Below are positions 55,615 through 59,481 of a stretch of 64,000 bases of DNA, piece by piece. Below the pieces are notes generated by a model. It did not search any database. It saw nothing but the letters and a program-made list of their open reading frames with translations, and was not told the DNA's origin. This DNA comes from Candidatus Altimarinota bacterium (lineage in GTDB: Bacteria > Patescibacteriota > Gracilibacteria > Absconditabacterales > Absconditicoccaceae): NCBI GenBank assembly GCA_027046965.1, contig JALTWR010000008.1, positions 1 to 64,000 on the forward strand. The letters are read 5' to 3'. Position 1 is the first letter of the stretch, and the number at the start of each line of letters is the position of its first letter. The translations under genes were made by a program, and so were the position numbers.

Positions 55615-56901
55615 ATGAGAAAATCATATACCAATACCTTGATAGTATTGTTGATGATACTTAGTATCATATTAAGTTTTTTGTTAGGAGTAAACATAGG
55701 AATTAGGGGATATAATGCGGCCATAAGTTATTGAGAACAAAAATTGCCTTATCAGCTTGTTTTAAGAGGACTACAAAATTCTTTGAGCTCATTGAATATT
55801 GGATGAGTATGAGAGAGGTTCTCAAAAATGTGGAAAATTTGGCAACTTTTGAACGAAAACTATTTTGATGAAGAAAAGGTAGTATGGGATAAAATGTATG
55901 AAAGTGCTCTTAAATGATTTGTAGATGCTATAGGTGATCCTTATACAGTTTATTTTACTCCTCAAGAAAATGAGTCTTTTCATGAGGCTCTCAAGGGGAC
56001 AAAAGATTTTGAATGAATTGGTGCTGTGGTTAGCAAAAAGAAAGATGGAGTATTGATTGAGGAAGTTATAAAAAATGCACCAGCTTATAAAGCAGGTCTT
56101 AAGCCTTTGGATCTTATCTTAGAAATAAATTGAGAATCAACGGCAGATATGGATTTAGGTGAGGCGGTTAAAAAAATCCGTGGTCCCAAAGGGACAGAGG
56201 TAGAGCTAACGATTTTTAGAGAAAGTGAAAATAGAGTTTTCAAAGTAAAAGTGGTTAGAGACAAAATAGTTGTGCCTTCTGTACTTGCCAGAGTTGAGGA
56301 TTTAAGTTGAACTAAGGTGTGATACATAGATATATCGATTATAGGAGAGGATACTTTTGATAAATTCAAAGAGGCGGTGCTTGATTTAAAATTGAAAGGG
56401 GTTAAGTGAATAATTTTGGATTTAAGATGAAATGGTGGGGGATTTTTGGAAACAGCTGTGGAAATTATTTCCTTTTTTGTGCCTAAATGAGAAAAAGTGC
56501 TTACAACAAAATATAGGACTTTCCCCAATCAAACTTTTTATTCAAAAGGATACAAATACTTGGAGTGATATCCAGTAGTAGTATTGGTAGATGGTTTAAC
56601 AGCTTCAGCATCAGAGATAATTGCCGGGGCTTTGAGGCAGCTTGTGGGAGCAAAACTTGTTGGGACTCAAACATTTGGCAAGGGGTCTATACAAACATTT
56701 ACGCCCAATAATTATTTTGGTGACAATTCTTCTTTGAAATATACTATTGGCAAATGGTATCTTCCTGATTGACACAATATAGACTGAACAGGTTTGAAAG
56801 TGGATGTAGAAGTCCCTTTTGATTTTACTTGATTTGTTCAAAGCGGGGTAGATCTGCAGCTTCAAAAAGCTCAGCAAGAGATTTTAAAAATGATAAAGTA
56901 A
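55615..56901 (+). CDS. C-terminal processing protease (S41, CtpA-like)
   Basis: 428 residues. An N-terminal helix ('LIVLLMILSIILSFLLGV', residues 10-27) anchors it or serves as a signal, placing the protease outside the membrane. A PDZ domain near 140-220 includes 'APAYKAGLKPLDLILEING'. The catalytic Ser (near residue 332) is in 'GLTASASEIIAGAL', and the Lys general base (near 356) in 'TFGKGSIQT', the classical S41 pair. The region around 'LDLRGNGGGFLETAVEI' is strongly conserved, with glycines as TGA. Such proteases trim C-termini and process wall enzymes or pilin-like subunits. It is followed by ruvX after 9 bases. Confidence 0.94.
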
Positions 56902-56910
56902 TATCTTTAG

Positions 56911-57324
56911 ATGAAAAAGTCTCAAAAAAATATATTAGGGATAGATTGGGGGAGTAAATATGTATGAACGGCTTACTGGAATTCTGCAGCAAATATAGTT
57001 ATGCCGATATGATATTTGCAAAATGACCCGTCATTGTTTTTTAATTTAGGTGATATTATCTCTAGATATAATATTGGAACTATAGTGGTAGGATTGCCTA
57101 AAGACAAAAAAGTGGCTCCTCAAGTTGAAGAATTTATAAAGTGAGTTAAGTTTATAGCAGGAGAAATTCCTGTTGAAGTAGAGGATGAGGAGTATAGTTC
57201 TGTAGAGGCTAACGCCCAAAAGTCCCATATGAACAAAGATCACTTAACTGATACTTTAGCAGCGATGATAATATTACAAAGATATTTAAAAAGATTTGAT
57301 TGACTTAGCAATTGAAATGTATAA
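56911..57324 (+). CDS. Putative pre-16S rRNA nuclease, YqgF/RuvX-like
   Basis: 137 residues with the RNase H-like fold of YqgF: 'NILGIDWGSKYVGTAY' supplies the first catalytic Asp, 'TIVVGLPKD' the second strand, and 'KDHLTDTLAAMIILQRYL' the C-terminal 'DS/DxxAA.iiLq.yL' motif. The middle 'EVEDEEYSSVEA' matches the 'DER.tt..A' segment. It processes the 5' end of 16S rRNA in E. coli. Five TGA codons, including 'YVGTAY', are in frame. It shares an operon with the S41 protease. Confidence 0.85.
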
Positions 57325-57367
57325 ATTATCAAATAAAGGGATTTAATTTTTTAAGCTTAAGGCAAAT

Positions 57368-58456
57368 ATGAATTTCAAAACAAAGCTCAAAGATAGTTCT
57401 TTAAATGTAGACCTTTCTGGTACTAAGTTAAAAGATGTTTTGCAATACTGTAAGCCCAAAGAGCAGTTGGTGTTGGTTAGAAAATATGCATTGGGCGATC
57501 ACAAAAAGACCTCTTTGCAACAGATTTGAAAAGAATATGGGTTAACTAGAGAAAGGGTTAGACAAATCGAGGCACAAGGGTTAAGTAGGTTCAGAAGGCT
57601 TATAATGAGGCATGATAAATATCTGAAAGTAATTGAAGATGCGAAGCTGCTGATAAAAGAAAATGAGGGGATAATGCTTGAAGATGATTTAATAGCTCAA
57701 TTGGTCAAAAACAACTATGGCCTAAAGGGTAATGAAATTAAGTTGATACTGGTATCTGACTTTGATCTATATTATCTTAAGAGAAATAGGATACTTAAAA
57801 AAAGTTTTTATATAGAGCCATTGTATGAATCATTACTCACTCAAATGGCTCAGTTTGTATTGGATTATTTCAAGAAGAAGCAAAATTCAGAAGATTTGTA
57901 TGAGTTTGTTGATAGAATGAAAGATGCTTTTAGTGAAAAACATCCAAATATTGGATATTTAAGTAGTCCTTTGTTTTACAAGAACTTTTTGAGTTTTATA
58001 AAAGGGGTGGTTGTTTTCGATGGTAAGGTTGGACTTGAGGAGTTCGATGATGTTAATCCAAAGACAATAAAGGCTAAAATGGTATATGTGTTGAGGAAGC
58101 TAAAAAAGCCTTTGCATTACCAAGAAATGACAACAAAAATAATGGAAATGTTCCCAGGAGATGTGGTAAAGGTAAATACTGTTCATAATGAGTTGGTTAA
58201 AAATGGAGATATTTTTGTAAATATGTGATTGGGGTTGTATGGGCTTAGAGAATGGTGAATTAAATGATGAACTGTTAAAGATGTTCTTGTGAGAGTGATG
58301 AAAGAAGCAAAAAGACCTATGAATGTTAGAGAGATTATCAAAGAAGTTTCCAAAGAAAAAATTGTATCTCCAAATACTGTTGTTTTGAACCTTCAAAGAT
58401 ATCCTGAGCTCTTTGAAAGGAAAGAAAAATGAGTTTATGAATATATAGGAGACTAA
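57368..58456 (+). CDS. Sigma-70 region 4 domain fused to HARE-type winged helices
   Basis: 362 residues. Residues 25-80 are a sigma-factor region 4: 'TSLQQIGKEYGLTRERVRQIEAQGLSRFRRL', with no region 2 or 3 present, so it cannot be a normal sigma factor. Further on, 'KKPLHYQEMTTKIMEMFPGDVVKVNTVHNELVKN' and 'KRPMNVREIIKEVSKEKIVSPNTVVLNLQRYP' are two HARE-HTH domains, as in the delta subunit of RNA polymerase. It probably binds the polymerase or promoter DNA as a regulator. The tRNA-Leu gene follows after 19 bases. Confidence 0.85.
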
Positions 58457-58475
58457 TTATTATTTTCTCAAAAAT

Positions 58476-58558
58476 GCCCAAGTGGTGGAAGTGGTAGACA
58501 CGCACGCTTGAGGGGCGTGTGGCCATAGGCCGTGGGGGTTCAAGTCCCCCCTTGGGCA
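58476..58558 (+). tRNA. tRNA-Leu (anticodon GAG)
   Basis: 83 bases. Acceptor GCCCAAG pairs with CTTGGGC, the anticodon stem CACGC/GCGTG holds loop TTGAGGG (anticodon GAG), and a variable stem is present in 'GGCCATAGGCC'. The T arm reads 'GGGGGTTCAAGTCCCCC'. The discriminator is A and CCA is not encoded. Confidence 0.96.
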
Positions 58559-58587
58559 ATTGTTTTGATTTGCTTACTAAAACAAAT

Positions 58588-59040
58588 ATGGGTCTAAAAG
58601 AAAAAATAATGAACGATTATAAGCAGGCTATGAAGGACAAAAATGATATCAAAAAGAACATATTAAATTATTTGATCTCTCAATTAAGGTACAAAAGGAT
58701 TGAGCTAGGCAGGGATTTAAAAGAAGAAGAAATCATCTCTGTGATAAAAAAAGAAATTAAATCTAGAAAAGAAGCAATGGATTTGTATACTTCTAGTTGA
58801 CATGAAGATATGGCCACTCAAGAAAAACAAGCTCTAGAGGTCTTAGAGCAGTATTTGCCCCCTATGTTGGATGAACAACAGACTAGGGAGCTGGTCAAAA
58901 TGTATATATCTAAGATATGAGGATCTCTTACTCCCAAATCAAGGTGAAAGCTGATAGGTCTGATTATGCAAGAACATAGAGCAGAGATTGATCCTCAGCT
59001 TTTAAACAAAATCATTGATGAGCAATTAAATTTAAATTAA
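58588..59040 (+). CDS. GatB/YqeY domain protein
   Basis: 150 residues. The start 'LKEKIMNDYKQAMKDKNDIKKNILNYLISQ' and 'ELGRDLKEEEIISVIKKEIKSRKEAMDLY' are the YqeY helical bundle; 'LEVLEQYLPPMLDEQQTRELV' completes it. YqeY proteins resemble the tail of GatB and are thought to bind tRNA or to aid amidation. The C-terminus lacks the usual 'G...GkvM' signature and has instead 'KLIGLIMQEHRAEIDPQLL'. It follows tRNA-Leu by 30 bases. Confidence 0.88.
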
Positions 59041-59046
59041 AATATC

Positions 59047-59481
59047 ATGAAAAGATTCTTAGTTTCGGTGGGCTTGCTATTAGTTTTGTCGGTAAATATC
59101 CCGTTTTGAGTGGTTTTAGCACAAGATGCCGGTTCAAATTCGTCGTCAAGTAATTCATGTAAATGAGTGGAGCTTAATACTGATATCTGAAACTATGTTG
59201 GAATAAAAGATGGTTGTATAAGTACAGAGGAAATGGAAAAATGAGCTTCATTGTTTGGAAATACCATAGCAGGTCTTGGTAAGTTTATAGTGCAAATATT
59301 AGTATTAGTTGCATTTTGACTAGTTATCTTTGGGGGAGTTATGATTGCTTCATCAGGGGCTTATGAAGAATGATATACTAAAGGGAAAGCCATGATTATG
59401 AAAGCAATTGTTGGTATTATTTTGTTGGGATTGATGGGCACTATTCTTTATTGGCTCAATCCGAACTTTTTTAAGATATAA
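59047..59481 (+). CDS. VirB2/TrbC-like small membrane protein with signal peptide
   Basis: 144 residues, not visible as a frame under the standard code. The signal peptide ends 'VVLAQ' near residue 26. A Ser/Asn-rich linker with two cysteines follows, then two membrane helices (about 84-105 and 119-140) around the hinge 'SGAYEEGYTKGKAMIM'. The helix-hinge-helix plan is that of TrbC/VirB2 pilins and is shared with the proteins at 50664 and 51180. It starts 6 bases after the YqeY gene. Pilin function is inferred from architecture only. Confidence 0.65.

Follow-up and report, generated by a model that had tools for sequence, protein, structure and literature searches.

The gene at positions 57368..58456 (+ strand) of the window, the 64,000-nucleotide stretch of Candidatus Altimarinota bacterium DNA that was analysed, encodes a protein of 362 amino acids that looks, in its predicted structure, like a sigma-70 region 4 followed by four winged-helix-like domains, the last two of them HARE domains (sigma4-wH-wH-HARE-HARE). 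The protein is not a sigma factor, nor is it a broken one. Our preferred reading, to which we assign a probability of roughly 45%, is a chromosomal regulator that binds promoters and has its region 4 capped, most probably competing with the RNA polymerase holoenzyme at −35 sites. Region 4, with its recognition helix retained, would read a DNA site that resembles a −35 element. Its groove, with which a true sigma factor grips the beta-flap tip, would be capped by the first winged helix (wH1), leaving a DNA reader that works without holding polymerase. The other winged helices, and the two HARE domains in particular, would extend the contact with DNA or touch RNA polymerase as the HARE domain of the delta subunit does. 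Competition at −35 sites would amount to repression or tuning of many promoters, while recruitment is the alternative outcome of promoter binding; here we infer DNA binding, the target sites and the sign of regulation alike.

The stretch reads TGA as glycine, and translation with table 25 gives glycine at six in-frame TGA codons of the gene; with table 11 the frame is split, and a 207-amino-acid piece alone is listed. The start is backed by relatives that share the N-terminus. TGA use varies strongly among homologs from the same family, three of which (L009, L013 and L014) have no in-frame TGA while others have up to 15. A promoter scan of positions 56800-59200 returned 11 sites against 9.1 expected.

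In Pfam, residues 30-76 scored 40.1 bits with Sigma70_r4 (cut-off 24.1), and HARE-HTH (PF05066) scored 41.6 bits (cut-off 25.9), covering two stretches when E values up to 1 are admitted and one at 0.01. Both domains were matched at E ≤ 0.01 in all 14 A2 members, while neither region 2 or 3 nor RNA_pol_A_CTD was matched by Pfam in the 362-residue protein (P0001). An AlphaFold2 model computed from 14 sequences, the protein itself and 13 named homologs, had a mean pLDDT of 90.8 and a pTM of 0.74, and showed region 4 followed by winged-helix-like domains at about residues 83-150, 154-224, 233-296 and 301-361. Region 4 (residues about 20-80; 57425..57607, +) superimposed on 1ku3 with a Z of 9.6 and an rmsd of 1.8 over 61 aligned residues, and sigma region-4 chains as a group matched the model at Z 9.1-9.7 (VIA). 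The first HARE winged helix (residues 233-296; 58064..58255, +) was assigned from the model, from a match to 7viv_A (Z 11.1, rmsd 1.1, 62 aligned; VIA) and from two homologs, L049 and L056, in which HARE-HTH scores above cut-off at the equivalent position. The second (residues 301-361; 58268..58450, +) was assigned from the model and the Pfam match at residues 301-334, and the protein ends no more than three residues past its final strand, with no acidic tail. The two middle domains, wH1 (residues 83-150; 57614..57817, +) and wH2 (residues 154-224; 57827..58039, +), had no Pfam match; they are predicted winged helices, assigned by the order of helices and strands in the AlphaFold2 model, with residues 83-232 barely probed by fold comparison. 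The initial annotation had described a region 4 fused to two HARE winged helices: the fusion was borne out, and the number of winged helices proved to be an undercount, the model having four. Foldseek matched the model to tandem winged-helix proteins at low overall TM. Global fold kinship with UFL1-DDRGK1, SelB or RPC62 was rejected, since query TM values of 0.15-0.22 and rmsd values of 12-22 mean that these matches reflect tandem winged helices and nothing more.

The Pfam architecture and a region-2 search of the locus also bear out the earlier statement that the protein, which has no regions 2-3, cannot initiate transcription alone. The source genome (854,813 bases, 94.78% complete) contains four region-4 matches at three loci: the gene at 57368-58456 and a locus each on C2 and C7. 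Region 2 was matched solely close to the C2 and C7 region-4 matches, at C2:12778-12975 and C7:53495-53653, and Sigma70_r2 had no match at the 57368-58456 locus. A full sigma factor in another frame, which the initial annotation had named as a point against its reading, was looked for at this locus and ruled out by the frame listing and the region-2 search. The gene is the only HARE match in the genome at E ≤ 0.001. The RpoB flap tip, judged by the beta-flap-tip motif, and region 4 of the primary sigma factor both looked intact and ordinary by eye, which indicates that a normal holoenzyme is present as a competitor.

Near full-length homologs were found in 39 of 40 close genomes (the source genome, 23 of its family and 16 of its class), at 30-59% identity outside the source genome; the one genome without, G017, has a completeness of 85% and was matched by region 4 only. 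So wide an occurrence excludes chance. Invariant positions in a 41-sequence alignment include R61, E62, R63, R65, Q66, H250, H273, N274, G287, G289, Y291 and G297. A profile of the part after region 4 matched 163 of 286 Patescibacteria genomes (145 of the 254 good ones), the 123 without a match comprising 20 listed individually and a remainder obtained by subtraction. Within sampled families presence was uniform, with f35 alone mixing both states (by eye), a pattern that suggests vertical inheritance. Among the best 80 of 522 candidates, the 13 full-length matches in the named collection belonged to Patescibacteria lineages or to records named "bacterium"; 41 loci among these best 80 were covered, with 16 of 41 genomes matched. 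Several Gracilibacteria-class genomes gave two matches each: L038 (two places), L036 and L046 (one genome), G100, G114, G189, G211, G232, G251 and G318. A phage origin was considered and rejected: of 50,697 phage records searched with tblastn, 22 matched, all over less than 80% of the query, and the 20 rows listed were confined to residues 2-91 of the query, where region 4 lies.

The −35 recognition helix carries the motif TRERVRQIE (residues 60-68; 57545..57571, +). The equivalents of sigma70 R584, E585, R586, R588 and Q589, numbered by the E. coli sequence, were identical in 97 of 98 homolog rows, in an alignment anchored on a motif that requires the three arginines and leaves E585 and Q589 free to vary; the one row without the anchor motif (L157) is left out of the count, and identity was thus seen in all 97 anchored rows. 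Two further positions, 561 and 593, do not vary among the 18 primary sigma rows obtained from 20 loci (two loci gave none) but are not kept in the sigma4-HARE family. The invariance of the recognition residues fits a constraint on −35 reading. Two relatives from Bacillota, L269 and L271, have TRARIQQI instead, and the site that they read may differ from that of the 362-residue protein. Degradation of the helix-turn-helix domains, a further point that could have told against the original proposal, was not observed, the pLDDT being 90.8 and the recognition residues unchanged. The same evidence bears on the idea of a decaying sigma-factor remnant: regions 2 and 3 are indeed missing, but length and domain order are alike across the phylum, residues are invariant and the fold is confident, and we regard decay as highly improbable.

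The predicted fit of wH1 against region 4 was compared with known structures of region 4 bound to the flap. Two chains, 7kuf_B and 6ido_B, are chimeras of sigma region 4 with the beta-flap-tip helix. VIA aligned 7kuf_B to residues 18-133 of the 362-residue model (81 of 85 residues, rmsd 2.2) and 6ido_B to residues 19-131 (77 of 77, rmsd 2.0), whereas flap-free region-4 chains aligned inside residues 16-84 (50 rows). The wH1 helix at residues 121-129 (57728..57754, +) apparently takes the position of the flap-tip helix, a placement deduced from the first and last aligned residues of the two chimeras rather than from coordinates. A second model, of the region 4-wH1 fragment of a 29%-identical homolog (L049; pLDDT 90.4), gave a comparable picture: 7kug_D aligned over 91 of 96 residues (Z 12.0, rmsd 1.9), 7kuf_B over 83 of 85 and 8d5v_B over 93 of 97, with the chimera alignments stopping just past the third wH1 helix, whereas flap-free sigma chains aligned over 60-71 residues (VIA, 50 rows). 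Z scores for flap chimeras and plain sigma chains were tied (within 1), the contrast lying in the length covered, and the chimera entries 8cyf, 8cwt and 8cwr were absent from the 50 VIA rows for either model. In Foldseek, most chimera chains covered 56-63 columns of the 362-residue model, that is, region 4 alone; 8d5v alone was longer (111-112 columns, rmsd 5.1). With the L049 fragment, 7kug_D covered 117 columns and 8d5v 97-100, at rmsd 4.7-7.0, while 7kug_B, 8cyf, 8cwt, 8cwr and 6ido covered 53-66; 7kuf_B covered 72 columns at rmsd 2.8. In these models, then, the wH1 helix seems to occupy the groove of region 4 into which the beta-flap tip normally fits. Our confidence in the capped groove is reduced because Foldseek agrees only partly, and AlphaFold may have filled a hydrophobic groove wrongly.

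An apparently occupied groove makes a reader of −35-like DNA that works on its own more likely than a protein that binds the flap and −35 DNA at once. The original suggestion that region 4 could hold the polymerase and −35 DNA together is accordingly unsupported in the form in which it was made, given two AlphaFold models in which the groove is seemingly occupied and partial agreement from Foldseek. A related explanation, which we consider a distinctly weaker candidate than promoter binding by a capped region 4, is that of a polymerase accessory subunit, with region 4 on the beta flap or on −35 DNA and the HARE domains docked on RNA polymerase as in delta. The delta subunit (RpoE) shares the HARE-HTH winged helix with the 362-residue protein, and its N-terminal domain is described in part of PMC7749165 as docking on RNA polymerase between the beta' shelf and jaw. 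The region-4 groove positions remain hydrophobic across the family, which also fits real flap binding, and the coverage of region 4 alone by most chimeras in Foldseek points the same way, as do the alpha-CTD fusions described below. The delta model TIGR04567 matched weakly, but its 22.3 bits lie far below the cut-off of 42. The acidic, disordered C-terminal tail of delta is missing from the 362-residue protein, which, unlike delta, combines region 4 with two HARE domains and a further pair of winged-helix-like domains, and the apparent occupation of the groove in both models also speaks against an accessory subunit. From sigma-70 factors (PF04545), with which it has the region-4 fold and the −35 recognition helix in common, the protein differs in having no regions 2-3, in not keeping positions 561 and 593 and in the apparent capping of the groove by wH1.

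Relatives outside the phylum were sought with the profile of the part after region 4. It matched 15 of 301 genomes in a Chloroflexota sample, 47 of 348 in the phylum of a Neobacillus genome (Bacillota) and 2 of 349 in the phylum of a Pseudomonas genome. In the Neobacillus phylum 15 matches were at E 3.4e-13 or better and the rest mostly covered a HARE-sized stretch; both matches in the Pseudomonas phylum were weak and short. Ten proteins from outside Patescibacteria, chosen from the stronger matches (5 from the 15 matched Chloroflexota genomes and 5 from the 47 of the Neobacillus phylum), were scanned with Pfam. Seven of the ten, all five from Bacillota (L269, L271 and L275-L277) and two of the five from Chloroflexota (L175 and L178), carry RNA_pol_A_CTD above cut-off, N-terminal to region 4. 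The relatives in both phyla are longer than the 362-residue protein. The family profile, of 356 positions, was colinear over most of its length with L271 (positions 9-355), L269 (15-354), L175 (16-353), L178, L168, L275 and L277, and with L276 up to position 290; in all seven alpha-CTD relatives the colinear match took in at least about three quarters of the profile. In L173 the profile matched in two pieces with the middle missing, and L177, taken from its first ATG onwards, matched positions 90-354. HARE scored above the Pfam cut-off in L178, L173, L269 and L271 and below it in L168, L175, L177, L275, L276 and L277. One Chloroflexota protein (L168:3383-5476), of sigma4-wH-HARE-like layout, has a C-terminal extension ending in RNxxxH that resembles HEPN by eye, though Pfam named no HEPN domain in this extension.

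These colinear relatives, with which the 362-residue protein shares its core, identify it as a version without alpha-CTD repeats of a wider sigma4-wH-wH-HARE-HARE family. In RNA polymerase the alpha-CTD reads the UP element and region 4 reads the −35 element, and the two are the enzyme's upstream DNA readers. Their fusion in one protein ties the family to promoter DNA. A broader proposal, which we hold to be possible though rather unlikely, is that the family consists of polymerase-derived readers mounted on a four-winged-helix scaffold in which wH1 imitates the flap tip, and that it regulates transcription globally in more than half of the Patescibacteria sampled. The free-standing readers, region 4 throughout and alpha-CTD in addition in Bacillota and some Chloroflexota, would then hold −35 sites without polymerase.

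Resemblances to defence and chromosome-silencing proteins raise the explanation of a nucleoid-associated silencer or sensor of invading DNA, comparable to Rok or to the DNA-binding half of BREX PglW. PglW profiles matched the alpha-CTD and sigma4 stretch of two relatives (L276, E 5.8e-17; L178, 9e-11), with which PglW may share a block that reads DNA. In layout, too, PglW is alike, since PMC12839542 describes three winged helix-turn-helix domains after an alpha-CTD-like domain. The BREX type 2 protein, however, is a kinase and nuclease of about 1400 residues, which the 362-residue protein is not, and the PglW profile did not match the latter. WH_Rok matched weakly in L173 of Chloroflexota (23.7 bits, cut-off 27.6), and the Rok domain 5zuz was among the Foldseek matches (E 0.073). 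With MzaA of the MZA anti-phage system, region 4 is the sole matching part: the PADLOC MzaA model gave 28.1 bits there, and NF041931 gave 42.7 bits, below its cut-off of 800. The Rok, PglW and MzaA matches are thus weak or partial; moreover, no defence genes were recognised beside the gene by eye or with Pfam, and presence is family-wide rather than patchy. We judge such a role improbable, somewhat more so than the translocase role to which the gene neighbourhoods point.

In the window, ruvX (56911..57324, +; Pfam RuvX 74.6 bits) lies directly upstream of the gene, and a tRNA-Leu (GAG) gene (58475..58559, +) directly downstream, where yqeY is also found. A small protein encoded after yqeY, at 59047-59481, scored 25.3 bits with T4SS_pilin, under the cut-off of 26.6. 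The same order occurs in a few relatives, and no general partner gene was seen among the 23 own-family loci, most of which have only about 1.5 kb of flank: ruvX was present at 3, ychF at 9 and yqeY at 3, and ruvX was present at 3 of 19 class loci. A yqeY-dnaG-rpoD operon is known elsewhere, and yqeY was considered as a hint of this operon and dropped, since just 5 of 42 Gracilibacteria loci carry it.

Outside Gracilibacteria, the sigma4-HARE gene is usually followed by genes for a protein of about 430 residues, membrane-bound to judge by eye from its hydrophobic start, and for a TraG/HerA-type ATPase that lies beside it or is fused to it. The two were counted as one unit, as their iterated profiles cross-match. 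The unit was present at 48 of 54 non-Gracilibacteria loci, and at 44 it came immediately after the gene in the same orientation, as scored from stop-to-stop frames; one locus (L155) was left out of the count, being from the same genome as L189, and the pairs L056/L188 and L039/L048, each from one genome, were kept. The unit was seen at L049, L051-L054, L056, L058, L060 and most of L188-L227. At 23 of the 54 loci secD/secF was also present, upstream on the same strand at 20. As gene order, going by these sequences, the linkage is real, and its occurrence at most sampled loci outside Gracilibacteria hints at another role, that of a DNA-binding adaptor for the translocase encoded alongside. Two scanned ATPases matched TrwB_AAD_bind, DUF87 and TraG-D_C, all above cut-off. 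The unit was nevertheless seen at none of the 23 own-family loci, mostly with flanks of 1.5 kb, and at only 2 of 19 class loci, all of them Gracilibacteria loci with short flanks, and the 430-residue protein has matches in 283 of 286 Patescibacteria genomes, against 163 for the C-terminal part of the sigma4-HARE protein. In 9 of 20 genomes without a sigma4-HARE gene, a selection of our own, secF is followed by the 430-residue protein with no frame of at least 90 residues between them. Strict dependence of the unit on the gene was rejected, the unit's protein existing without it. An adaptor role therefore appears unlikely, less probable than an accessory subunit. By its sequence matches the unit itself is near-universal in Patescibacteria, and its 430-residue protein had no Pfam match at E ≤ 0.01 in any of three scanned.

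Both kinds of domain are already known, and their combination is probably visible in public annotation because it lies within reach of Pfam. Among the papers listed in literature searches, judged by title and abstract opening, none described the sigma4-HARE architecture, and Aravind and Iyer (2012) may mention it. The family is widespread and apparently unstudied. If promoter binding by a capped region 4 is correct, the protein would be a widely kept transcription regulator of Patescibacteria, in which gene control is poorly known, and the family would show that the modules with which RNA polymerase reads promoters were put to new use in DNA readers that work without the polymerase and carry their own mimic of the flap tip.
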